A DNA stretch of 43,955 nucleotides from an uncultured Flavobacteriaceae bacterium. Lineage in GTDB: Bacteria > Bacteroidota > Bacteroidia > Flavobacteriales > Flavobacteriaceae. The notes beneath the pieces were generated by a model. The model was not told the DNA's origin. It made no database searches and saw only the letters and a program-made list of their open reading frames with translations. The stretch is from contig CANMSA010000029.1 in NCBI GenBank assembly GCA_947500385.1, forward strand, positions 1 to 43,955, given 5' to 3'. This document shows, piece by piece, positions 2,066 through 14,325 of this stretch (position 1 is its first letter; every line of letters begins with the position of its first letter). The position numbers and the translations under genes were made by a program.

Positions 2066-2965
2066 TTACTTTTTCCACCGCTTCAGAAAGTTGACAAGAA
2101 GATGCGCCAGTTCGTCCCCTTTTTCCTCTTGAATGAAATGCCCTGCTTCCTGAATTATTTGATGTGGCTGCCCCTTTGCTCCCGGTACTTTCGATTGAAA
2201 AAAGGTATCGGCCCCGCGCATGATAGGGTCAGAATCGCCAAAAAGGGTCAAAAAAGGTTTTCCCCATTTTTCTAACACCCGCCAGGTGGCATCACATGCG
2301 GGTAATGCATTTGCTTCATCATCCCCGTCAAAAGGTACCAATTTCGGAAATATACGAGCACCTGCCATATAGGAATCATCAGGAAAAGGGGCGTCGTAGG
2401 CCGCCATGATCTCTTTTGAAAGCCGTGATACCGTTCCCATCTGTAATACGCTTCCCGCATTGAATTCGGGTGCCGTTTGCGAAAAGTGGCGCCACTTTAA
2501 GAATGCATCATTTGCGCGCACTCCCGACCTGGGCACGAAGGTATTCGAAGCGACAATACTACTAAACAACTTTTCATTTTCGGCAGCCAATCGCAAACCT
2601 GCAAGGCCTCCCCAATCCTGGCAAAACAAATTTATCTCGTAGAGCTCCAAATTTGTCACCAAATTTTTAAGCCAGGCCACATGCCTTTCAAAACTGTACG
2701 CCTGCCGATCGACCGGTTTGTCCGATTTTCCAAAACCGATAAGGTCAGGAGCAACTACGCGAAAGCCCTCGGTGACCAGTATCGGAATCATTTTACGATA
2801 CAAATATGACCAACTAGGTTCACCGTGCAATAATAAAACAACCGGCCCCTCTCCTTCATCTACATAATGCATTTGAAGTTCCTCATCGACCGCCGAATAG
2901 TTCGCACGAAACGGATAATCATTTAACCATTCGAATCGGGAAGCAGGTGTTTTTTGTATTTTCAT
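2066..2965 (-). CDS. Haloalkane dehalogenase (subfamily I-like)
   Basis: A 299-residue alpha/beta hydrolase. The nucleophile motif is CQDWGG with Asp117, followed by the halide-holding Trp118. The oxyanion motif HGEPSW lies at 47-52, the candidate acid is Asp246 in GDSDP, and the catalytic His276 is in EAGHF. Trp158 in the cap region is a candidate for the second halide-binding Trp. Asp-Trp in place of Ser at the nucleophile elbow, with the HGEPSW signature, is typical of haloalkane dehalogenases and close to the DhlA/DhmA subfamily. These enzymes hydrolyse carbon-halogen bonds to an alcohol plus halide. It is the last gene of the minus-strand catabolic cluster, 17 bases after the MaoC hydratase, so its alcohol product could feed the dehydrogenases upstream. 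An epoxide hydrolase is less likely because the lid Tyr pair is not seen. Confidence 0.85.
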   Translation of the reverse strand: MKIQKTPASRFEWLNDYPFRANYSAVDEELQMHYVDEGEGPVVLLLHGEPSWSYLYRKMIPILVTEGFRVVAPDLIGFGKSDKPVDRQAYSFERHVAWLKNLVTNLELYEINLFCQDWGGLAGLRLAAENEKLFSSIVASNTFVPRSGVRANDAFLKWRHFSQTAPEFNAGSVLQMGTVSRLSKEIMAAYDAPFPDDSYMAGARIFPKLVPFDGDDEANALPACDATWRVLEKWGKPFLTLFGDSDPIMRGADTFFQSKVPGAKGQPHQIIQEAGHFIQEEKGDELAHLLVNFLKRWKK

Positions 2966-2982: not shown

Positions 2983-3447
2983 TTATTCGAACATTAAAGA
3001 GACAAATTCGGCAACACATGCCGGTTTCTCGGCCCCTTCAATTTCGACCGTGCAATCCCAGAGGATTTTCATGCCTGTATCACCGTACGGATCTACCTGA
3101 AGAATTTTGCTTCTTAGCCGCACCTTACTATTAACCAAAACCGGATTGGGAAAACGTACCTTGTTCAAGCCATAGTTGACCCCCATCTGAACACTTTCCA
3201 CCCGTAATACTTCTCCCAACATTTTTGAAATGAGGGAAACCGACATGAATCCATGGGCCACCGGGGCTTTAAAAGGAGAATATTGGTTCGCTTTTTCAAC
3301 ATCCACATGAATCCATTGAAAATCGAGTGTGGCTTCCGCAAAAGCATTTATCATTTCTTGGGTTACCGTTATCCAATCGCCCAAGGGTAGTTCACTACCA
3401 ACTTTTTTCTTAAGCGCCGCTAAATTTGTACAAACGAGTGCTTCCAT
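2983..3447 (-). CDS. MaoC-family (R)-specific enoyl-CoA hydratase
   Basis: A 154-residue single hot-dog domain. The hydratase signature is clear: Asp42 and His47 in DFQWIH, preceded by an ITVTQEMINAFAEAT segment, and HGFMS at 65-69. Family members hydrate trans-2-enoyl-CoA to (R)-3-hydroxyacyl-CoA. It lies 6 bases after the FabG-like gene, a pairing that usually interconverts enoyl-, 3-hydroxy- and 3-ketoacyl-CoA. There is no signal peptide, so it is cytosolic. Length matches the single-domain group. The exact chain length of its substrate cannot be read from sequence. Confidence 0.88.
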   Translation of the reverse strand: MEALVCTNLAALKKKVGSELPLGDWITVTQEMINAFAEATLDFQWIHVDVEKANQYSPFKAPVAHGFMSVSLISKMLGEVLRVESVQMGVNYGLNKVRFPNPVLVNSKVRLRSKILQVDPYGDTGMKILWDCTVEIEGAEKPACVAEFVSLMFE

Positions 3448-3453
3448 ATATCG

Positions 3454-4191
3454 TTATCTTGAAATTCCACCATCAATTGTAAGACAAATGCCCGAAACAT
3501 ATTGCGCCTCATCGGAGGCAAGGTATAAGTACCCATAGGCAATGTCAATAGGTTGTGCAGCCTTCTGGAGCGGAATCTGTTTCTTGATGGCCGTGAGATG
3601 TTCATCGGGAATGCCCTTTACCATTTCGGTAAGGGTAAAACCGGGAGCCACCGCGTTCGCGGTAATTCCGTACTTGCCCAACTCCATCGTCCAAGTTTTT
3701 GACATCGCGATTACACCTGCCTTGGTTGCCGCATAGTTTGTTTGTCCAAAATTCCCCCGGAGGCCTACATTGGAAGCCGCCGAGACGATTCTACCATAAC
3801 CCGCTTCTTTCATATAACCGGCAACCGCTTGGGTGCATAGAAATACTCCCTTTAGATTTACATCGATTACCGCATCCCATTCTGATTCGCTCATTTTTTG
3901 CAAGGTTTTATCTCTGGTGATTCCTGCATTGTTGATCAGGATATCTATTTTTCCAAACCTGGCATGCACATCCGCGACCGCAGCGGCAACTGCTTCCTTG
4001 TCCGTGACCGATATTTTATGAAATTCTGCCGTCCCGCCGTTGTCATTGATGTTTTTGGCAGTAGTGACCCCTTCTTCCAAAAGATCCCATAGTATCACCG
4101 ATGCTCCCTCTTTTGCAAACAATTCGGAAATTGCCTTGCCGATACCGCGAGCACCTCCGGTAACGATTGCCACTCTATTCTTTAATCGCAT
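3454..4191 (-). CDS. FabG-like 3-oxoacyl reductase / 3-hydroxyacyl-CoA dehydrogenase (SDR)
   Basis: A 245-residue classical short-chain dehydrogenase. It has TGGARGIG at 11-18 for nucleotide binding, NNAG at 87-90, and catalytic Ser140, Tyr153 and Lys157. It resembles FabG closely in length and in its C-terminal VSGICLTIDGG segment. In this setting, beside a MaoC hydratase, it more likely acts on CoA esters than in fatty-acid synthesis. Its start lies only nine bases from a ten-copy heptamer array (4201-4270), so transcription or translation could depend on repeat number. A gap of 256 bases separates it from the MDR gene upstream, so it may begin a separate transcript. Confidence 0.88.
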   Translation of the reverse strand: MRLKNRVAIVTGGARGIGKAISELFAKEGASVILWDLLEEGVTTAKNINDNGGTAEFHKISVTDKEAVAAAVADVHARFGKIDILINNAGITRDKTLQKMSESEWDAVIDVNLKGVFLCTQAVAGYMKEAGYGRIVSAASNVGLRGNFGQTNYAATKAGVIAMSKTWTMELGKYGITANAVAPGFTLTEMVKGIPDEHLTAIKKQIPLQKAAQPIDIAYGYLYLASDEAQYVSGICLTIDGGISR

Positions 4192-4447: not shown

Positions 4448-5425
4448 TCACTCCATGCCAATCACTGCTTTTCCCTTTACGCTTCGTTGCATCATATCCT
4501 CCAGCGCCACCGGAGCTTCCGCCAACGGATAGATTTTATGAATATGCGGGTTGAGCTTTCCGTTGCCATACCAAGACATCAAGTCAAGGGTATTTTCCTG
4601 GTTCTTTTTGGGTGTCCTCATCGCAAAACTTCCCCAAAATACCCCTACGAGCGCACACCCTTTTAAAAGGGCCAAATTAAGCGGTATCTTTGGGATATCG
4701 CCGGCTGCAAAACCAACGATCAGGTATCTCCCCTCCCAGGCCATACCACGAATGGCAGCTTCAGAAAAATCCCCGCCGACCGGGTCGTACACCACATCAA
4801 CACCTTTCCCATTGGTCAGTTCTTTGATGGTCTCCTTGAGATTCTGATCTGAATAATTGATGACGGCATCCGCACCGTACCTTTTGCAGAGTTCCAATTT
4901 TTCCGTCGTAGATGCGGCGGCAATGACCTTGGCGCCCATCAGTTTGCCGAGTTCAACGGCCGCAAGCCCCACACCTCCCGAAGCACCGAGTACCAGAAGG
5001 GTTTCGCCCTCTTTTAGTTGCCCCCTATCTTTTAATGCATGGTATGAGGTACCATAGGCCATCATAAACGACGCGGCTACAGCAAAATCCATTTGTGGCG
5101 GTTTTAAAAAACAAGCATTTGCAGGTACCACTACTTCCTCGGCATATCCGCCATTCAATACAAAACCAAAAACGGCATCGCCCGGCTTTACATGGGTGAC
5201 TCCCTCGCCCACTTCTTTCACCACCCCCGCAATATCGCTGCCCGGTGTAAAAGGCACTTTTGGTTTGAACTGATACAACCCCTGAATGATCAACGTATCC
5301 GGGAAGTTTACTCCGCACGCTTTTACCTGCACCAAAACTTCTTTTGCTTTTGGTTTCGGACTATCCAAGACCTCTAATTTTAAATCAGAAGGCGGACCAA
5401 AGGCCTTACAAACGATTGCTTTCAA
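4448..5425 (-). CDS. NADPH:quinone oxidoreductase-like MDR enzyme
   Basis: A 325-residue zinc-free medium-chain dehydrogenase/reductase of the quinone oxidoreductase type. The N-terminal GroES-like domain has KACGVNFPDTLIIQG and TPGSDIAGVVKEVG. The Rossmann motif is GASGGVGLAAVELG around residue 145. The Cys and His ligands of zinc alcohol dehydrogenases are missing, as expected for this class. Members reduce quinones or the double bond of enoyl compounds with NADPH. It follows another MDR gene by 20 bases in the catabolic cluster. A role in saturating an alpha,beta-unsaturated intermediate is plausible but inferred from context. Confidence 0.85.
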   Translation of the reverse strand: MKAIVCKAFGPPSDLKLEVLDSPKPKAKEVLVQVKACGVNFPDTLIIQGLYQFKPKVPFTPGSDIAGVVKEVGEGVTHVKPGDAVFGFVLNGGYAEEVVVPANACFLKPPQMDFAVAASFMMAYGTSYHALKDRGQLKEGETLLVLGASGGVGLAAVELGKLMGAKVIAAASTTEKLELCKRYGADAVINYSDQNLKETIKELTNGKGVDVVYDPVGGDFSEAAIRGMAWEGRYLIVGFAAGDIPKIPLNLALLKGCALVGVFWGSFAMRTPKKNQENTLDLMSWYGNGKLNPHIHKIYPLAEAPVALEDMMQRSVKGKAVIGME

Positions 5426-5445: not shown

Positions 5446-6450
5446 TTAATCTTCCTGTACTTTTAATACCAGTTTGCCCATTTTATCGCCGGTGAAGAGG
5501 CGACCAAAGGTTTCTGGGAAATTTTCGATTCCATCATAGACATCTTCCTTGCTCTTCAGTTTTCCCTGCATCAACCAAGCGCCCATTTCCATGGCCGCTT
5601 TTTTATAGTCGGCAGCATAGTCGAATACGACCATGCCTTTCATACTGGCACGGTTTACAAGAAGTGCCAAGTAATTTTTGGGTCCTCGAACATCTTTCTT
5701 GTTATTGTACTGAGAAATAGCCCCACAAATCACAATACGGGCCCCCATTCGAATTCGGGAAAGTGCCGCATCCAAGATTTCACCACCAACGTTGTCAAAA
5801 TATACATCCAACCCTTTTGGACATTCCCGCTTGATGGCATCATAGATGTTTTCGGACTTGTAATCGATTGCGGCATCAAAACCAAGTTCCTCAACAAGGT
5901 ACTTGCATTTCGCCGCACCTCCTGCGATTCCTATGACCTTACAACCCTTTATTTTGGCTATCTGCCCCACGACACTGCCTACCGCACCTGCCGCCCCCGA
6001 GACCAAAACGATATCGCCTTCCTTTATTTTTCCTTCTTGTAGAATACCAAAATAGGCGGTCATACCGGGCATGCCCAAGGTACCAAGGTACATGGGTAGC
6101 GGAGCAACTTTTGGGTCTACGGGGTACCAATTCTCTCCGTCGGTGACCGTGTATTGTTGCACCCCGCCCCAACCACTTACAAAATCACCTTCTTTCAATT
6201 TAGGGTGATTGTTCGCTTTGATTACCTGTCCTACGGAACCTGCCCGCATCACGGCGCCAATTTCCACCGGTGCAATGTACGACCGCGCATCGTTCATCCA
6301 ACCCCGCATCGCGGGATCTAGCGATAAATAATGTTGGCAAATCAACACTTCTCCCTCACCAGGTTCTGGTACTGTCGAAGATTCCAAAGACCAAGTGGTC
6401 GCATCCGGCATTCCTTCCGGTCTATTTCTTAGTATCCATTGTTTATTCAT
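5446..6450 (-). CDS. NADP-dependent MDR oxidoreductase (prostaglandin reductase/CurA-like)
   Basis: A 334-residue MDR protein of the leukotriene B4 dehydrogenase/CurA/YncB group. It shows an N-terminal LSLDPAMRGWMND block, SGAAGAVGSVVGQIAKIKG as the Rossmann motif near residue 150, and YFDNVGGEILD near 220, all typical of this group. Such enzymes use NADPH to reduce the double bond of enones or 2-alkenals. It is transcribed 21 bases after the enoyl-CoA isomerase-like gene and just before the second MDR gene. Two neighbouring MDR enzymes from different subgroups suggest different substrates rather than a recent duplication. Confidence 0.88.
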   Translation of the reverse strand: MNKQWILRNRPEGMPDATTWSLESSTVPEPGEGEVLICQHYLSLDPAMRGWMNDARSYIAPVEIGAVMRAGSVGQVIKANNHPKLKEGDFVSGWGGVQQYTVTDGENWYPVDPKVAPLPMYLGTLGMPGMTAYFGILQEGKIKEGDIVLVSGAAGAVGSVVGQIAKIKGCKVIGIAGGAAKCKYLVEELGFDAAIDYKSENIYDAIKRECPKGLDVYFDNVGGEILDAALSRIRMGARIVICGAISQYNNKKDVRGPKNYLALLVNRASMKGMVVFDYAADYKKAAMEMGAWLMQGKLKSKEDVYDGIENFPETFGRLFTGDKMGKLVLKVQED

Positions 6451-6471: not shown

Positions 6472-7236
6472 TTATTTATGTTGTAGACTTTCAACAAAAG
6501 CCTTCATTTTTGCCCGGATATTGGGGGACCACCAAAGCTCGATCGCCTCCGCCAAATCTTTGGAAGCATCGGTCTCTAAATTGGAAAACCACGTATTTCG
6601 CAACTTCCTTTTGGTATTTTTAAAAATAATCGGGTCGGCCTTTAAAAACTGTTTCATTTTTTTCTCCGCCATGGGCAGTACTTCTTCCATAGGTACTAAC
6701 TGATTTACCAAGCCACATTCCAATGCTTCGGTACCATTCAACAATTTACCATCTAAAATGTATTCATGCGCTTTACCGGTCCCTATCCAAAAGGAATAGG
6801 CGTTCACTAAATTATTTGAAATCTGAATGTTGACCGCCACCTCGTTTAAGCCAATGGTGTACTTCTCGCCCTTTGCCATTATACGGTAGTCTGCCGTAAT
6901 GGCAAATACACACCCCCCTGCGGGGGCATATCCAGGAATAGCGCAAACGAGCGGTTTTCGAAATTGGGCCATTTGCAGATGCAATGCGCCAAAATCACCA
7001 AAAAAAGCGGTTATTTCATCAGTATCATACCCATACAGCTCAATTACATCCAAACCAGCGGAAAAAAAATGCGGAATCCCGGTCAAAATAACCCCTCCGA
7101 CCGTTTCATCCTTCTCCGATTCGGCAAAGACCGCAGACAGTTCCCGAACCATTTCATGATTGATCGCATTGACTTTACCACGATTTAACTGTACAATGGT
7201 ATACCCTTCTTTCCTTTCTAATTGTATTGTTTTCAA
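6472..7236 (-). CDS. Enoyl-CoA hydratase/isomerase, resembling delta3,delta2-enoyl-CoA isomerase
   Basis: A 254-residue crotonase-fold protein. The oxyanion-hole elements are FSAGLD (58-63) and APAGGC (104-109). The first hydratase Glu is replaced by Val110, while the second is kept as Glu132 in GLNEV. This one-Glu pattern, with PAGGC, ADYRIMA and YTIGLNE blocks, closely resembles mitochondrial ECI1, which moves a double bond from position 3 to 2. Isomerase activity is therefore more likely than hydratase activity, which would fit a cluster that has a separate MaoC hydratase. It lies 40 bases after an SDR gene in the same orientation. The distinction rests on alignment by eye. Confidence 0.82.
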   Translation of the reverse strand: MKTIQLERKEGYTIVQLNRGKVNAINHEMVRELSAVFAESEKDETVGGVILTGIPHFFSAGLDVIELYGYDTDEITAFFGDFGALHLQMAQFRKPLVCAIPGYAPAGGCVFAITADYRIMAKGEKYTIGLNEVAVNIQISNNLVNAYSFWIGTGKAHEYILDGKLLNGTEALECGLVNQLVPMEEVLPMAEKKMKQFLKADPIIFKNTKRKLRNTWFSNLETDASKDLAEAIELWWSPNIRAKMKAFVESLQHK

Positions 7237-7276: not shown

Positions 7277-8032
7277 CTAGAGGGAAGTTCCCCCATCCAA
7301 TATAATTGTTTGTCCAGTAATAAACTTTGTGGTGTCCGAGGCCAGCCATACGATCGCCTCGGCAATCTCCGAAGCATCTCCATAACGTTTCATGGGAATC
7401 ACACTTTTTAAAATGGCATCCATATCGGGCCGGGCAGCTAGCAATTTGTCCAAAAGTGCCGATTCGGTATACCCTGGACAAACGGCATTCACTCGAATAT
7501 TCTTGGTTGCGTATTCCATCGCCGCCGACTTGGTCATCCCTACCACCGCAAATTTACTAGCGCTGTAAGACAGATTGTTCGGAGAAGCCTTTAAGCCCGC
7601 CAAAGAAGCAACATTTACGATGTTGCCTCCTCCTTGTTCCAGCATCTGTCGCAATGCCAATTTCATACAATAGAACACCCCGGTTTGATTTACGGCAATA
7701 ACCCTGTCCCAATCTTCAAGGGTATATTCGGCCGTTTTGGCCATCATTCTCGGTCCGATACCCGCATTGTTCACTATTACATCTAAACGCCCGAACTGTT
7801 TTACAGTTTCTTTGATTAGGTTTTCGACCGCCTCGTATTTGGCCACATTCGCTTCTATTGCGATCGCCTTGCCTCCCTCCGAGCTTATTGCGGCAACTGT
7901 TTTTTGGGCCTTCGTGATTTTCAGGTCGGAGACAATGACCTGCGCCCCATGATGGGCAAAGTGCTTGGCGGCGGCGGCTCCTATCCCAGAGCCTGCGCCG
8001 GTTACCACTACTATTTTACCTTTAACTTCCAT
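7277..8032 (-). CDS. Short-chain dehydrogenase/reductase
   Basis: A 251-residue classical SDR. TGAGSGIG (11-18) binds the nucleotide, Asp36 at the end of the second strand favours NAD over NADP, NNAG lies at 88-91, and the catalytic residues are Ser143, Tyr156 and Lys160. It ends in the common ITGQTIILDGG segment. An NAD-linked enzyme would suit oxidation of a hydroxyacyl-CoA or alcohol in a degradative pathway. It follows the DUF1330-like gene by seven bases. The substrate is not evident; a 3-hydroxyacyl-CoA dehydrogenase is the best guess by context. Confidence 0.87.
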   Translation of the reverse strand: MEVKGKIVVVTGAGSGIGAAAAKHFAHHGAQVIVSDLKITKAQKTVAAISSEGGKAIAIEANVAKYEAVENLIKETVKQFGRLDVIVNNAGIGPRMMAKTAEYTLEDWDRVIAVNQTGVFYCMKLALRQMLEQGGGNIVNVASLAGLKASPNNLSYSASKFAVVGMTKSAAMEYATKNIRVNAVCPGYTESALLDKLLAARPDMDAILKSVIPMKRYGDASEIAEAIVWLASDTTKFITGQTIILDGGTSL

Positions 8033-8039
8033 GTCTGTT

Positions 8040-8423
8040 TTATTTGCAAAAAATAATTCTTGAATCGATCAACGCCTTTTTCCGAATATGTCCTGGATAC
8101 CCTTCTTTCTGAATAAGATTGAAAAAATCGGCTTTGGTATCATAGGTAACGATCAACACCTCGTCCCAAAGCGTTTCCTCCTCCGGTCCGATAATGGTCA
8201 AAGCCGGCATCGCTTTAAAACTGATACGGGCATTGATATCTTGAAAAAAAGGCGTCGCCTTTTCTAGATACTCCTTGTAGACCTCCCTCCCTGTTTTGCC
8301 CGTTTTGGGATCTAAGGGTGCATACTTCATATAGTTCAGCATATAAACAGGCCGGTCGTTCGGATAATCGGCCAATGCTTTTAAGGCCATAGGATTAATA
8401 TCGGTATAGAGATCGTTGCTCAT
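8040..8423 (-). CDS. Small DUF1330-like protein next to kinase
   Basis: A 127-residue protein resembling the DUF1330 ferredoxin-like (dimeric alpha-beta barrel) group, with RPVYMLNYMKYAP, GREVYKEYLEKATPFF and a late DFFNLIQKEGY block. Proteins of this fold are often small dimers that bind hydrophobic ligands or act as accessory subunits. The gene is separated by a single base from the upstream phosphotransferase stop, so the two are probably translated together. In the levulinate pathway the kinase LvaA also needs a small partner, LvaB; whether this protein plays a similar part is conjecture and no sequence likeness to LvaB is claimed. Confidence 0.75.
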   Translation of the reverse strand: MSNDLYTDINPMALKALADYPNDRPVYMLNYMKYAPLDPKTGKTGREVYKEYLEKATPFFQDINARISFKAMPALTIIGPEEETLWDEVLIVTYDTKADFFNLIQKEGYPGHIRKKALIDSRIIFCK

Positions 8424-8424
8424 T

Positions 8425-9492
8425 TCAGTCGATTTTATTGGTTTGAATGGATTTCAGCGCTATGTTACAGCATAATTCAGCCGCTTTGTTCAGCTTCGCA
8501 AAACGAGGATCCGCAGTATACCCATGTTTATAACGATAGTAAATCTGCTGAACGATTACGGCAATCTTGAAGAGGCCGTATACATAGTAAAAAACAATAT
8601 GATCTACTGGACTTTTGCTTTTTTCGGCGTAGCCTTGTACGATATCGCTTCTACTAGGGTTGCCCTCGAATACAGTGGGTGAAGAAATACCTTGTTTTAC
8701 AAAATCGTTATCGGAATGCATGGTCCAGTAACCTAGCGATGTACCGAGATCCATTAAGGGATCGCCCAGGGTAGCCATTTCCCAATCAAGCACAGCACTT
8801 ATTTCCTTAAAACTGGCATCTTTGAAGGCTACGTTATCATATTTATAATCGTTGTGTATAAGGCTATGATGATACGTTTTTGGTTGATGCTCTTCCATCC
8901 ATCGCATTACCTTTGCCGCTGCGGGAATCTGATCGGTCGCAGCCTTTACGTATTGCTTCCCCCAATTGGTCACTTGCCGCGAAACATACCCTTCTGGCCT
9001 TCCCAAGTCGCCCAAACCAACAGCCTCATAGTCTACTTGGTGTAGCGCCACCATGGTATCGAGCCATGAATTTGAAATGGTACCGTACTCGATCGGCTTG
9101 ATTTGTCTTTTTTTAGCCTCTTGAAAACTTAATATAATACCATTTATTTTTTCCATCACATAAAAAGAGGACCCGGTATACTTGGTATCTTCCGTATAGG
9201 CGTACATAGCGGGAACCTTCGAAAATGCAGATTTTAAAGCCTTTTGAACTTTAAACTCGCGTCCCATATCATGTCCACGTTTTATAGCACCAAAAGGTGG
9301 ACGACGCAACACATACTCTTTCCCTTCTATCTTCAATAGATACGTCAGATTTGAAAAGCCATTTGTAAACTGCTGAACGGTTAAAACGTTGTTGGTATCG
9401 GCGATAAGGTTATGTTCAAGCAAAAACTGTTTTAGTCCCACTTCGTCTAATTCTTCTCCCTCTCGTACTGTTTGGTTCGGACTTACTGCCAT
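8425..9492 (-). CDS. APH-family phosphotransferase, ACAD10/11 kinase-like (LvaA-like)
   Basis: A 355-residue aminoglycoside-phosphotransferase-fold kinase. The catalytic loop is HND (213-215) followed by Asn220, and the metal-binding motif is LDWEMATLGDP starting with Asp236. The N-terminal lobe has QFTNGFSNLTYLL and VLRRPPFG, which are signatures of the ACAD10/ACAD11 kinase domain. In animals that domain is fused to an acyl-CoA dehydrogenase and phosphorylates 4-hydroxyacyl-CoAs; in Pseudomonas, LvaA does the same to 4-hydroxyvaleryl-CoA. Here the acyl-CoA dehydrogenase is the neighbouring gene, 10 bases upstream. The common catalytic HGD is HND in this protein, which should be compared with homologues. 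Antibiotic resistance is not a likely role. Confidence 0.88.
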   Translation of the reverse strand: MAVSPNQTVREGEELDEVGLKQFLLEHNLIADTNNVLTVQQFTNGFSNLTYLLKIEGKEYVLRRPPFGAIKRGHDMGREFKVQKALKSAFSKVPAMYAYTEDTKYTGSSFYVMEKINGIILSFQEAKKRQIKPIEYGTISNSWLDTMVALHQVDYEAVGLGDLGRPEGYVSRQVTNWGKQYVKAATDQIPAAAKVMRWMEEHQPKTYHHSLIHNDYKYDNVAFKDASFKEISAVLDWEMATLGDPLMDLGTSLGYWTMHSDNDFVKQGISSPTVFEGNPSRSDIVQGYAEKSKSPVDHIVFYYVYGLFKIAVIVQQIYYRYKHGYTADPRFAKLNKAAELCCNIALKSIQTNKID

Positions 9493-9502
9493 GGTGGTGC
9501 TA

Positions 9503-10729
9503 TTATAATTGTGATTCCCCTGTATACTTCTTAATTACACTTTTCCCCAATTGGTACATATGCACCTCATCTGGCCCATCTGCCAAACGAAGCATGCGCG
9601 CCACGGCAAAATAGTGTGCCAAAGGGGTGTCGGGGCCCACGCCCTTCCCTCCATGTATCTGTATAGCCCTATCGATTACTTTTAAGGCCATATTCGGCGA
9701 AACAATTTTAATCATCGCGATAAGGTCTTTGGCATCTTTGTTTCCTTTCTTATCCATTTTGTCGGCGGCGGAAAGTGTTAGAAGCCGTGCTTGTTCTATT
9801 TCACATTGAGACAAGGCAATTTCTTGGCGTATGCTGCTAAAATCGCGTATGGTCCTTCCAAAGGCAATCCTTTCCGAAGTACGTTGGGACATGAGTTCTA
9901 ATGCGCGTTGGGCCATTCCCGTAAGTCGCATGCAATGATGTATGCGGCCTGGGCCCAATCTACCTTGCGCTATTTCAAAGCCTCTCCCCTCTCCCAGAAG
10001 CAGGTTTTCCTTCGGCACCCGAACATTCTCCAATAAAATCTCGGCATGCCCCTCTGGTGAATCGTAGAACCCAAAAACGGAAAGTGGTCGCACAATAGTT
10101 ACTCCCTGAGTGTCCATAGGAACCAATACCATACTTTGTTGTTGATGCCGAGGAGCATCAAAATCCGTTTTCCCCATCACAATGGCAATCTTACAATGGG
10201 GGTCCATGGCACCCGAGGACCACCATTTTCGACCATTAATAACGTATTCATCCCCTTCTAATCGAATAGAGGTCTCGATATTGGTCGCATCGGAAGAGGC
10301 CACTTCGGGTTCCGTCATTAAAAAGGCCGACCTGATTTCCCCGTTCATTAAGGGTGTCAACCATTTTTCTTGTTGTTCAGCGGTTCCGTATTTGGCCAAC
10401 ACCTCCATGTTTCCGGTATCGGGTGCGCTGCAATTAAATACTTCGGAGGACCAGACGATACGTCCCATAATTTCTGCCAAAGGGGCGTATTCCAAATTGG
10501 TAAGGCCTGGGCTTAGTTTCCCATAGTCTTTGGGAAGAAACAGATTCCATAAGCCGGCCGCTTTGGCCTTTTCCTTTAACGCTTCCAATCCTGGCCAACG
10601 TTTCCATCTATTTTCCGGGTCCGAATGATAGGCGTACACGGCCTGCTCTACGGGTACAATATGTGCTTCCATAAAAGCACGTAATTTTTTTTGTAATTCT
10701 TGGGATCTTTCTGAATATTCAAAGTTCAT
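9503..10729 (-). CDS. Acyl-CoA dehydrogenase, ACAD10/11-like (LvaC-like)
   Basis: A 408-residue acyl-CoA dehydrogenase. It has the FAD/substrate segment [14 protein letters not shown], then [32 protein letters not shown], and a C-terminal LADGPDEVH typical of ACAD10/ACAD11 enzymes. An open frame continues upstream to 10831, but the added residues are Arg- and Cys-rich, overlap the SDR gene and match no family member, so the ATG at 10727-10729 (protein starting [10 protein letters not shown]) is chosen. That leaves a 20-base gap to the SDR. Together with the kinase it forms a split version of ACAD11. The expected chemistry is elimination of phosphate from a 4-phosphoacyl-CoA with rearrangement to a 3-hydroxyacyl-CoA; simple dehydrogenation remains possible. 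Confidence 0.9.
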
Positions 10730-10749
10730 AGGCAGCGTATTGGTATTGA

Positions 10750-11526
10750 TTAACCTGCGATCATGTATCCTCCATCGGCCGTATACACACCTCCGGTCAT
10801 ATAAGCACCCGCATCGGAAGCTAGCAAGCAAACGATTCCTTCCATTTCTTCTGGCATTCCCATACGGCCAGAGGGCAGGGTTTTCTCTATTTTCTGGAGT
10901 ATTTTCTCATTTTGCCATAAAGCGGCGCTAAATTTTGTCTTGATCAATCCAGGGCACAGTGCGTTGGCACGAATGCCATATTTGCCCCATTCCTTTGCCT
11001 GATTTTTGGTCAGCATCAGCAAGGCCGCTTTGCTGGTACTATATAAGCCCAAACCCATACCCGGTGTAAGTGCTTCAACGGAGGCAAGGTTGATAATACT
11101 GCCACCTCCGCGCTCTTTCATACTGGGCATCACCTTATTCGATAACATCCAGGGGGCTTTTACGTTGACATCCATAATTTTGTCGAAAATGGCTTCTTCC
11201 GCATCTTCCAGCGGACCAAATACCGGGTTGATGGCGGCATTGTTCACTAAAATATCGACCCCGCCCAATTGTTCAATCGTTTGGGTTACCAAGTTGGCCC
11301 GTTGTTCTTCCTTACCTATATGGCAGGCAATACCATGGGCTTTCAGCCCAGCTGCTTTAAACTCGGCCACAACGGTATCGCAGGCCGCTTGATCCCGACT
11401 ACTGATAATGACGGTGGCCCCGTTTTCTGCCAAACCATGGGCAATGGCTTTTCCAATTCCCTTGCTTGATCCGGTTATGATGGCAATTTTTCCCTCTAAA
11501 TCAAATTGATTTTTTATCCTGGTCAT
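10750..11526 (-). CDS. Short-chain dehydrogenase/reductase (DHRS4-like)
   Basis: A 258-residue SDR with a TGSSKGIG motif (18-25), NNAA (95-98) in place of NNAG, and catalytic Ser149, Tyr162 and Lys166. Arg44 after the second strand (SSRD) suggests NADP preference. The sequence [23 protein letters not shown] and the NNAA motif resemble DHRS4-type carbonyl reductases. It is followed after 20 bases by the ACAD10/11-like gene. Its position suggests reduction or oxidation of a keto/hydroxy intermediate, for example interconversion of a 4-keto and 4-hydroxy acid before phosphorylation, but this is inference. Confidence 0.87.
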
Positions 11527-11680: not shown

Positions 11681-13492
11681 TTACACAAAGACCTCTTTTC
11701 CGGTCTTGACGGTCAAGACTTCAGAATCCATTAGCGACTCTGCAAGCGCATTGGTTTTCGGAAGTTCATATTTAAAATAAAACTTCATGGTATGGATCTT
11801 ACTTTCATAAAAAGCTTCTGAGTACTTGGTATCTCCTTTTAACAAACTTTGCTTTGCTTTGGTGGCCATATCAAGCCACAACCAACTAATTACAATGATG
11901 CTCATAAACTCCATAAACAAATTAGCATCGGACAAGTAGCGTTCAAAATCGCCCTTCTGGGCAAAAGGCATCAAATACGCCAATACTTCTTGCGATAGCT
12001 TTAATTTGGCGCCCAATTTTCCCGCATAGGGTTTTAAGTCATCGTATGCGCTGGCAGCAGTGATGGTCGCCATTATTTCCGCAGCCAACAACTCAAGGCC
12101 TTTCCCGTTTTCCATGCTTATTTTTCTACCTAAAAGGTCTTGCGATTGTATTCCTGTAGTACCTTCATAGATTGCCGAAATACGAATATCCCTGTAATAC
12201 TGTTGCAGAATGAAATCGGTACAGAAACCATACCCACCCAATACCTGCAAGCCATTGTTCACGGCGACCGCCCCGGCTTCGGAGGGAAATGTCTTTACAA
12301 TTGGGATGATCATTTCCAACAGTAGGTGGTACTTGGCTCTCTCCGCCTCGTCTTGGGTCGCTTGTTTGATATCCTGATACCGCGATGCCAAAAGAACCAA
12401 ACTTAAAGAAGCTTCTACGATCGACTTTTGCAATAGAAGCATGCGTCGTACATCGGGATGTTCAATGATCAAACTCTGGTTTTCATCCGGATTCTTTTTA
12501 CCCGCACTGGTAAGCTTTCGCCCTTGGGGTCTTTCATTGGCATATTCCAATGAAGCTTGATATGCCGCCATGCCAATGGCCGCCGCGCCGCGCCCTACTG
12601 CGATCCGGGCCCCGTTCATCATTAAAAACATATATTTTAGTCCTTGATGGGGTTCCCCCACTAACCATCCTCGGCAATCATCCGTATCACCAAAACCCAA
12701 GTGGGTTGTGCAATAGCCCCGCTGTCCCATTTTTTGAAAATCGGCCACTGTGGTCACATCATTGTACTGCAAGCCACCCTCCTCGGGGCGGTGCTTGGGT
12801 ACCACAAAAAGAGAAATACCCTTGGTTCCTGAAGGGGCACCTTCGATACGGGCCAACACCAGGTGGATGATATTTTCGGCATATTGGGTATCACCTCCAG
12901 AAATAAATATTTTTTGGCCACTGATTTTATAGAAATCCTCTTCCGTCGGAACGGCCTTGGTAGTAATGTCAGACAATGAACTACCCGCTTGAGGTTCGGT
13001 AAGACACATGGTACCGCCCCATTCGCCTGCCAACATTTTGGGTACATAGGTTGTATTGAGTGCTTCATTTCCAAAATGGGCAATCAGTTCTGCCGAACCC
13101 AAAGTGAGTCCTGCATACCCGGGCAAGTGATTGTTGGCTGCATCTAGAATATAGGCCGTGGAGGTATAGGCCATCGAAGGCAATTGCAGTCCGCCATCCT
13201 TATAATCAAAGGGCGCCGCGATAAGGCCCATTTCCCCACCTTTTTTCATCATCACATCTACCTGTTTGTGCACCAAAACGGTGCCATTTTTATGGTAGGC
13301 CGGATTTTCATCCATTTCTTTAAAATATGGGAACAGTTCTCGATCCGAGAATTCTTTTACCGAATCTATAAACAAGTCGACCGACTCCTGATCATGATCT
13401 TGAAAACGTTCGTACCTTAATACTTCTTCAAGTCCATGAACATCATATAATACATATTTTAAGGTGTCGATATCTATATACTCCTTAGCCAT
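11681..13492 (-). CDS. Long-form acyl-CoA dehydrogenase with C-terminal extension
   Basis: A 603-residue acyl-CoA dehydrogenase, about 200 residues longer than the short/medium-chain type. TEPQAGSSLSDI (165-176) binds FAD and substrate, and ISGQKIFISGGD follows. The catalytic Glu443 sits in IYEGTTGIQ, matching very-long-chain and bacterial long-form enzymes. A helical C-terminal domain (about 460-595) is like the extra domain of these families. It opens the minus-strand catabolic cluster, 185 bases after the Crp/Fnr regulator. A 154-base gap before the SDR gene may hold an internal promoter, but no box was identified. Confidence 0.92.
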   Translation of the reverse strand: MAKEYIDIDTLKYVLYDVHGLEEVLRYERFQDHDQESVDLFIDSVKEFSDRELFPYFKEMDENPAYHKNGTVLVHKQVDVMMKKGGEMGLIAAPFDYKDGGLQLPSMAYTSTAYILDAANNHLPGYAGLTLGSAELIAHFGNEALNTTYVPKMLAGEWGGTMCLTEPQAGSSLSDITTKAVPTEEDFYKISGQKIFISGGDTQYAENIIHLVLARIEGAPSGTKGISLFVVPKHRPEEGGLQYNDVTTVADFQKMGQRGYCTTHLGFGDTDDCRGWLVGEPHQGLKYMFLMMNGARIAVGRGAAAIGMAAYQASLEYANERPQGRKLTSAGKKNPDENQSLIIEHPDVRRMLLLQKSIVEASLSLVLLASRYQDIKQATQDEAERAKYHLLLEMIIPIVKTFPSEAGAVAVNNGLQVLGGYGFCTDFILQQYYRDIRISAIYEGTTGIQSQDLLGRKISMENGKGLELLAAEIMATITAASAYDDLKPYAGKLGAKLKLSQEVLAYLMPFAQKGDFERYLSDANLFMEFMSIIVISWLWLDMATKAKQSLLKGDTKYSEAFYESKIHTMKFYFKYELPKTNALAESLMDSEVLTVKTGKEVFV

Positions 13493-13677: not shown

Positions 13678-14325
13678 CTATTGTTTGGATAGGCGCTTTC
13701 TTATTTTGGAGAGCCCTACAGGGGTGAGTCCAAGGTAGGAAGCGATCAAATACTGGGGAACCCGTTGAAAAAGATCGGGGCGCTTTTGAAGCAAGCGTAC
13801 ATATCGCTCTTGATTTGAAAGGTTCTTTAATTGGTTATTGCGTCGAAACAATTGCATAAAACCGTCCTGCATCGACAAGCGGCCAAAGCGCTCCAAATCA
13901 TGGGAATGATCAAACGATTTTTCGGCATCCTGCTTTGAAATGGCATATAGGACACAATCTTCGGTAGCATTCAAAAAACTACTCGAAGGTATCTCCTCGA
14001 TATAGGCATATAGGTCTGTAAAAAACTCCCCGGCGGTAAAAAACTCCATTACCTTCATATCCGCATCCTCTTCCCTATAGTAGCACATACACCCCTGATG
14101 CAGAAAATAAAAATGGTCTACAACTTGCTCCGGGCGGATTAGGAAGTCTCCTTTTTTCAAAGAGACTTTACGGTAGAATTGCAGTGAATATTCCAAATCT
14201 GCGTCGTTTACAGCAACATACGACCGTATTTTTTGTTTGATGTCCTCCAAAGAAAAAGTAGTTTTTGAATGGCATAAAAATACGGACTTTAGTGCAGAAT
14301 GCCATCGTAAATGCAACATACCCAA
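13678..14325 (-). CDS. Crp/Fnr-family transcription regulator
   Basis: A cyclic-nucleotide-binding-type sensor domain (about residues 45-150, with KKGDFLIRPEQVVDHFYFLHQG) followed by a C-terminal helix-turn-helix (YLIASYLGLTPVGLSKIRKRLSK). The effector pocket lacks an obvious cAMP-binding RxA signature, as in many Bacteroidota members whose ligand is unknown. The first ATG gives 215 residues, but the opening 25 are atypical; a TTG at about 14247 would give the more usual length, so the start is uncertain. It is divergent from the MOSC gene and co-directional with the catabolic cluster that begins 185 bases downstream, so it is a candidate regulator of that cluster. Confidence 0.85.
   Translation of the reverse strand: MGMLHLRWHSALKSVFLCHSKTTFSLEDIKQKIRSYVAVNDADLEYSLQFYRKVSLKKGDFLIRPEQVVDHFYFLHQGCMCYYREEDADMKVMEFFTAGEFFTDLYAYIEEIPSSSFLNATEDCVLYAISKQDAEKSFDHSHDLERFGRLSMQDGFMQLFRRNNQLKNLSNQERYVRLLQKRPDLFQRVPQYLIASYLGLTPVGLSKIRKRLSKQ

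Follow-up and report, generated by a model that had tools for sequence, protein, structure and literature searches.

The window analysed here is a stretch of 43,955 nucleotides from an uncultured Flavobacteriaceae bacterium (GenBank assembly GCA_947500385.1, contig CANMSA010000029.1, positions 1 to 43,955). It contains neighbouring genes for an acyl-coenzyme A (CoA) dehydrogenase (ACAD) of the ACAD11 type and an APH-fold kinase, followed by the gene of a small protein, and these three genes are the subject of this report. In animals a kinase and a dehydrogenase of these kinds form one fused protein, ACAD11, which serves the breakdown of 4-hydroxy fatty acids. The open reading frames, all on the minus strand, were confirmed as an earlier sequence-only reading had described them, as was the single base between the kinase stop codon and the ATG of the small gene. 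The ACAD was started at the ATG at 10729; a mechanical list of open reading frames begins it at a TTG at 10831, within the gene of a short-chain dehydrogenase/reductase (SDR).

10729-9503, minus strand: ACAD11/LvaC-type ACAD, 408 amino acids from the ATG; predicted phosphate-eliminating 4-phosphoacyl-CoA enzyme
9492-8425, minus strand: APH-fold kinase, 355 amino acids; predicted hydroxyacyl-CoA kinase
8423-8040, minus strand: small protein with a predicted DUF1330-type dimeric alpha+beta-barrel fold, 127 amino acids; probably an optional operon gene

The window ACAD was compared with Protein Data Bank (PDB) entries using phmmer. It matched ACAD11 (2wbi, 446 bits), mouse ACAD11 (8v3u, 443 bits) and a bacterial protein (4hr3, 439 bits), and the next ACAD not of the ACAD11 type scored 150 bits, placing ACAD11 nearer by a wide margin. 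Residues H597, R626, R631, H634, R637 and D753 (mouse ACAD11 numbering) are all present. In the model of mouse ACAD11, R626, H634 and R637 hold the 4-phosphate beside the base D753, and replacement of these three residues with Ala or Leu was the most disruptive to the ACAD step (PMC12440821). For comparison, 101 kinase loci were collected (the window, 20 fetched regions and 80 scan hits), of which 99 were distinct after removal of two duplicates. An ACAD at least 36% identical lies within 6 kb in 79 of the 99, and in 77 of these it exceeds 250 amino acids (43 more than 60% identical to that of the window, 34 below). All six residues named above are kept in 77/77. Within the window genome the next ACAD is 31% identical (five matches at E ≤ 1e-20). 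A second group of ACADs, about 40% identical to that of the window and with the full phosphate site, was seen at 34 loci among L074-L153 (e.g. L109, L118, L129), mostly beside kinases 43-50% identical to the window kinase.

The window kinase matches Pfam APH (PF01636) at 138.6 bits and, among PDB entries, 9o56 at 295 bits, 3dxp at 162 bits and ACAD11 at 149 bits. R176, H218, D220, N225 and D240 (mouse numbering) occur in it and in 98/98 kinases; because the 80 scan hits were chosen by the motifs HND[YF]KYD and [IV]LDWEM[CA]T, the invariance of H218-N219-D220 and D240-W241 in these 98 is partly by construction. When the window is taken with only the 20 relatives that had been fetched independently of any motif, the same five residues are found in 21/21, so that the catalytic D220 and N225 and the CoA-contacting R176 are kept in the window and in 20/20 unfiltered relatives. 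An Arg beside the alpha-C Glu is likewise kept in 21/21 kinases (residue 84 in this count, R86 in the paper).

The distribution of the small gene was examined in loci with a kinase at least 52% and an ACAD more than 60% identical to those of the window. Such an ACAD is present at 44 loci, of which L106, L138 and L145 (kinase below 52%) were excluded, leaving 41. The small gene is present in 16 of these and absent from 25; L078 and L090 end near the kinase, and in L090, with 74 bases left, the absence is uninformative. On a quick tree, nine changes between presence and absence are needed, eight of them forced by starred branches. Shuffled labels require about 13 changes on average, and nine or fewer were reached in 6-9 of 500 shuffles; presence is thus somewhat clustered on the tree. 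In 16 loci that lack the small gene, the first gene recognised after the kinase is SDR2, the SDR gene at 7277..8032. No homologue of the small protein was found elsewhere at E ≤ 0.01 in 8/8 operon genomes tested that carry no small gene there (99-100% complete), nor at this threshold in five genomes whose locus is of the histidine phosphatase type described below, and each of seven small-gene-positive genomes has one copy, that of the operon.

Where the small gene is present, SDR2 is the next gene after it in 16/16 loci, with a gap of 5-121 bases, except 758 in L045. Another gene separates it from the kinase in 4/16: a transglutaminase-like gene in three Aquimarina loci and a histidine phosphatase gene in a Saprospiraceae metagenome-assembled genome. 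The Aquimarina genes lie at L077:11114-11749 (PF01841), L082:11104-11742 and L083:11203-11838, the last two assigned by similarity. The gap in L045, about 750 bases (10496-11247 in kinase orientation), is apparently non-coding; its translations repeat the same segments several times, as if built of repeated units. The ratio of nonsynonymous to synonymous substitution (dN/dS) for the small gene is about 0.2 in two close pairs; for three other pairs, dS was not computable. Because its gene is missing from so many relatives, the small protein is unlikely to be an essential component of the kinase, and the comparison suggests a functional but optional operon gene.

Profile searches with the window small protein gave no match in Pfam at E ≤ 0.1 and none in NCBIfam at E ≤ 0.001. 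When the window genome was searched with PF07045 at E ≤ 10, the small protein was not matched, only another gene on contig C19 (G000:C19:38019-38270, locus L061), which is a genuine DUF1330 gene elsewhere in this genome. An AlphaFold2 model of the small protein, built with 10 sequences, has a mean predicted local distance difference test score of 87. Its best Foldseek match in the PDB is RPA0582 (3dca; template modelling score 0.83/0.81, E = 1.7e-10), a protein that also matches the small protein at 2.4e-9; 3lo3 and 2fiu, which we take to be DUF1330 proteins, rank third and fourth. RPA0582 (3dca/3hhl), 3lo3 and 2fiu share the fold and are titled proteins of unknown function; we know of no link between them and this pathway. 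Weaker matches are other dimeric alpha+beta-barrel proteins such as hydroxynitrile lyase, 4-methylmuconolactone methylisomerase and SnoaB. One homologue found with the small-protein profile, L062, matches PF07045 at 5.7e-7. The sequence-only description "DUF1330-like" therefore survives for the fold and for remote kinship through L062, and a direct DUF1330 assignment in Pfam was rejected as no PF07045 match was found.

A phylum sample of 394 further genomes yielded homologues of the small protein in 12, about 30% identical where tblastn aligned them; a tblastn search of the flanks of their 12 loci (some 1.5 kb either way, with L071 shorter) detected none of the other operon genes. Conservation was compared between the proteins of the 16 operon loci and 10 of these homologues (L070, L071 and L073 were excluded). 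At least 90% conservation in both groups was found at 20 of 127 positions, including Y49, Y52, W86, D87, R114 and D120-S121-R122. Because this core is common to homologues without the kinase beside them, it probably serves a function independent of this kinase. A 274-amino-acid protein at L060:2577-3401 (kinase orientation) matches the small-protein profile weakly with its C-terminal part (21.9 bits). Downstream of its gene are a sulfatase-like gene and the ACAD and kinase genes, and a gene of the same cluster is found in L059.

The family of LvaB, the small partner of the kinase LvaA in Pseudomonas putida, is presumably DUF6285. The small protein was rejected as a DUF6285 member: it has no such match in Pfam and an hhalign probability of 0.1% against one DUF6285 protein. 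The window genome contains no DUF6285 match at E ≤ 10. A Sulfitobacter row of a divergent APH-type kinase, a DUF6285 gene (4-base frame overlap) and an ACAD (L165:3229-6009, AP027374.1), which holds the only DUF6285 protein found, was considered as an Lva layout and dropped, its ACAD being 28% identical and lacking R626, H634, R637 and D753; its kinase is a very long branch in the kinase tree described below. Because that ACAD lacks the phosphate site, the row is no evidence on the family of LvaB.

The kinase and the ACAD11-type dehydrogenase are enclosed in an acyl-CoA operon of 12 genes on the minus strand. Read in the direction of transcription, these encode a 603-amino-acid ACAD, SDR1, the ACAD11-type ACAD, the kinase, the small protein, SDR2 and an enoyl-CoA hydratase, followed by two medium-chain dehydrogenase/reductase (MDR) oxidoreductases, a FabG-like SDR, a MaoC-type dehydratase and an alpha/beta hydrolase. 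The other genes of the operon and the regulator gene upstream of it are as follows.

13678..14319, minus strand: Crp/Fnr-type regulator gene, upstream of the operon (PF00027, 49.9 bits)
11681..13492, minus strand: 603-amino-acid ACAD with an Acyl-CoA_dh_C extension, first gene of the operon
10750..11526, minus strand: SDR1, the upstream SDR (PF13561, 206.6 bits), adjoining the ACAD in many loci; candidate source of 4-hydroxyacyl-CoA in an LvaD-like role
7277..8032, minus strand: SDR2
6472..7236, minus strand: enoyl-CoA hydratase/isomerase (PF00378, 146 bits)
5446..6450, minus strand: MDR oxidoreductase, CurA-like (383 bits, below the equivalog cut-off of 440)
4448..5425, minus strand: MDR oxidoreductase, PIG3-like (246 bits, below the cut-off of 297)
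3454..4191, minus strand: FabG-like SDR (profile matches)
2983..3447, minus strand: MaoC-type dehydratase (PF01575, 80 bits)
2066..2965, minus strand: alpha/beta hydrolase, PRK00870 subfamily (412 bits against a cut-off of 265)

In the 19-kb regions fetched from 20 relatives, the operon is whole or largely kept in 15; the other five have the ACAD, the kinase, sometimes the SDRs and a histidine phosphatase-type gene (assigned by Pfam on one of the five). A Crp/Fnr-type homologue lies upstream in 8/15, a gene of an acyl-CoA synthetase cluster stands at the end of the operon in 7/15 (Pfam on one), and the alpha/beta hydrolase is found in only 3/15 (L041, L042 and L048). The order kinase, small gene, SDR recurs in 7/15 operon-bearing relatives, with small proteins 34-69% identical to that of the window, so the arrangement is more than chance. 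Among 299 genomes of the window's family, a kinase search at E ≤ 1e-60 was positive in 35, the window genome included. The placement of the window in Flavobacteriaceae agrees with two genomes of its family, whose loci L042 and L054 have the same kinase as L074 (a Flavobacteriaceae bacterium) and L089 (Croceitalea dokdonensis). Other Flavobacteriaceae largely share the operon.

Separate kinase and ACAD genes, adjoining or within about 1 kb of each other, were also found on plasmids of Sulfitobacter, Sphingobium, Deinococcus, Haematobacter, Comamonas, Rhodococcus and Pseudoalteromonas, with R626, R631, H634, R637 and D753 kept in the ACAD. The Haematobacter ACAD has Ala at H597, and that of Comamonas is only 31% identical to the window's. 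A Cupriavidus locus has an ACAD and no annotated kinase, and two kinase loci show no ACAD. Because split pairs occur in several phyla, separate genes are an ordinary bacterial layout. The sequence-only picture of a "split ACAD11" is thus right in that two neighbouring genes carry ACAD11-type domains, and the arrangement is not unusual. Two further observations concern these loci. A gene of the histidine phosphatase family near the kinase is a recurrent companion of the split pair in several phyla (L056-L060, L085, L157:10313-11026, L163:7047-7751 and others, at up to 6 kb from the kinase). At L155:9001-10248 (AP027374.1), an ACAD11-type gene with one in-frame stop is annotated as two pieces, and its first 102 bases were labelled vanG by prediction, which is probably a false resistance call.

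We consider it probable that the kinase and the ACAD form a 4-hydroxyacyl-CoA route of known chemistry in which the small protein is not a required kinase subunit. The route is the best reading because of the phosphate-binding and catalytic residues and the acyl-CoA operon setting. The kinase would phosphorylate the hydroxyl of a 4-hydroxyacyl-CoA, and the ACAD11-type flavoenzyme is predicted to deprotonate C2, eliminate phosphate via a transient redox step of flavin adenine dinucleotide and release a 2-enoyl-CoA, which the hydratases and SDRs of the operon would feed into beta-oxidation. SDR1 or SDR2 may make the 4-hydroxyacyl-CoA from its 4-oxo form. The small DUF1330-type protein, probably co-transcribed and an optional homodimer, would serve for some substrates, either as a small enzyme (an isomerase, a lyase or an oxygenase by type) or by binding a ligand. 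This keeps the route proposed in the sequence-only reading, with its ACAD11-type residues and acyl-CoA setting, and departs from it on the clade of the kinase, the LvaB-type partner and the product. A 3-hydroxyacyl-CoA had been expected as product; the published product is a 2-enoyl-CoA (PMC12440821, PMC11342911), and 3-hydroxyacyl-CoA is described as a non-enzymatic by-product in PMC12440821 and as of unclear origin in PMC11342911.

Several points weigh against this reading, and some bear on the substrate, which is itself predicted. A quick tree built from 40 kinases places the mouse ACAD11 kinase with 3dxp and proteobacterial kinases (100*); the group of the window kinase (98*) also contains 9o56, one kinase from Deinococcus and others from several phyla. 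As this tree has long branches and LvaA outside it, it was used only to deny close kinship with the ACAD11 kinase. The kinship with ACAD11 anticipated by the sequence-only reading thus holds for the ACAD (446 against 150 bits) and not for the kinase, which by this tree is outside the clade of the mouse enzyme; a 4-hydroxyacyl-CoA is therefore its putative substrate. The window kinase also has Asn in place of mouse G219 (HND against HGD). In 20 of the 99 distinct loci, some on short contigs, no ACAD at least 36% identical lies within 6 kb, so kinases of the wider clade are not always beside an ACAD11-type dehydrogenase. A CoA ligase is missing from the window operon; the nearest homologue of the relatives' ligase in the window genome is on another contig and 45% identical. 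The pair could act on another phosphorylated acyl-CoA, with the hydroxyl at another position or on a branched, cyclic or terpenoid chain, and the MDR, SDR and hydrolase genes would then mirror a special substrate. The separate clade of the kinase speaks for this, as do two MDR, three SDR and two different ACAD genes, which look beyond the needs of levulinate or a simple 4-hydroxy acid. We regard it as unlikely, since the window ACAD has the same phosphate pocket and the same catalytic Asp as ACAD11, whose substrate carries its phosphate at C4.

The remaining points concern the small gene. It stands directly behind the kinase in 12/16 loci, as expected of a partner, with 0-1 base between the two frames in the window, L041, L042 and L048, and a gene that is often lost could still be a partner where it is present. 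The small protein probably belongs to another family than LvaB. LvaB itself is a 12-kDa protein that was reportedly pulled down with LvaA and required for growth on levulinate (PMC6692424). From such points, and from the small gene's position between kinase and SDR2 in 16 loci, the protein might be a lineage-specific stand-in for LvaB, one that associates with the kinase and, in the species having it, makes that enzyme more active or more selective. This we hold to be quite unlikely: the gene is missing in 25/41 loci and from 8/8 whole operon genomes tested, a transglutaminase-like or histidine phosphatase gene intervenes in 4/16, the conserved core is common to homologues without the kinase beside them, and recombinant mouse ACAD10/11 kinases are reported active without a small partner (PMC12440821). 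These same findings, apart from the mouse work, run counter to an obligate partner of the LvaB type, and the parallel with LvaB drawn in the sequence-only reading has weak support. Frequent absence would also fit a passenger that plays no part in this pathway; the dN/dS of about 0.2 where it could be computed and the unvarying position and orientation of the gene in Flavobacteriaceae and at one Saprospiraceae locus make this very unlikely. We also entertained, as an unlikely reading, that the slot behind the kinase, in a clade distinct from that of the ACAD11 kinase, is a swap site for unrelated accessories that tune or protect the phospho-acyl-CoA step. Its occupants would be the DUF1330-type barrel, the histidine phosphatase and the transglutaminase-like protein, with LvaB in P. 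putida, and, were it true, 4-hydroxy acid catabolism in Flavobacteriaceae would involve an accessory not yet described, the DUF1330-type protein. On the evidence above, an optional small enzyme or binder is more likely than an obligate LvaB-type kinase subunit.

ACAD10 and ACAD11 were linked to 4-hydroxy acid catabolism only recently (PMC11342911, 2024; PMC12440821, 2025). Of the open-licence papers listed by the literature searches, none pointed, by its title or the start of its abstract, to this operon or to 4-hydroxy acid catabolism in Bacteroidota, and no published substrate test for the clade of the window kinase was found in open-licence literature. The operon would offer a compact bacterial system with downstream enzymes and a kinase of a less-studied clade, and its loci suggest that an LvaB-type small partner is no general need of the split kinase/ACAD pair.

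Besides RPA0582, 3lo3 and 2fiu, which resemble the small protein in fold, three known systems are nearest. The window shares with mammalian ACAD10/ACAD11 (PMC12440821, PMC11342911) the phosphate site and catalytic Asp of the ACAD and the fold and catalytic residues of the kinase, and differs in having two separate genes, a kinase of another clade with HND for HGD, and an operon setting. A bacterial LvaA orthologue is reported to have substituted in vitro for the kinase part of ACAD10 (PMC11342911). With LvaA/LvaB/LvaC of P. putida (PMC6692424, PMC11342911) it has in common that kinase and dehydrogenase are encoded separately, that a small gene stands next to that of the kinase and that an SDR is nearby; it differs in that relatives often lack the window-type small gene and that the window operon is without an LvaE-like ligase. 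The lva cluster of Pseudomonas citronellolis LA18T (PMC6692424) resembles the loci described here in having a kinase, an ACAD and an SDR, reportedly without LvaB, and another gene between; there the intervening gene, beside the LvaA homologue, encodes a histidine phosphatase, a type also found beside the kinase in other relatives of the window.

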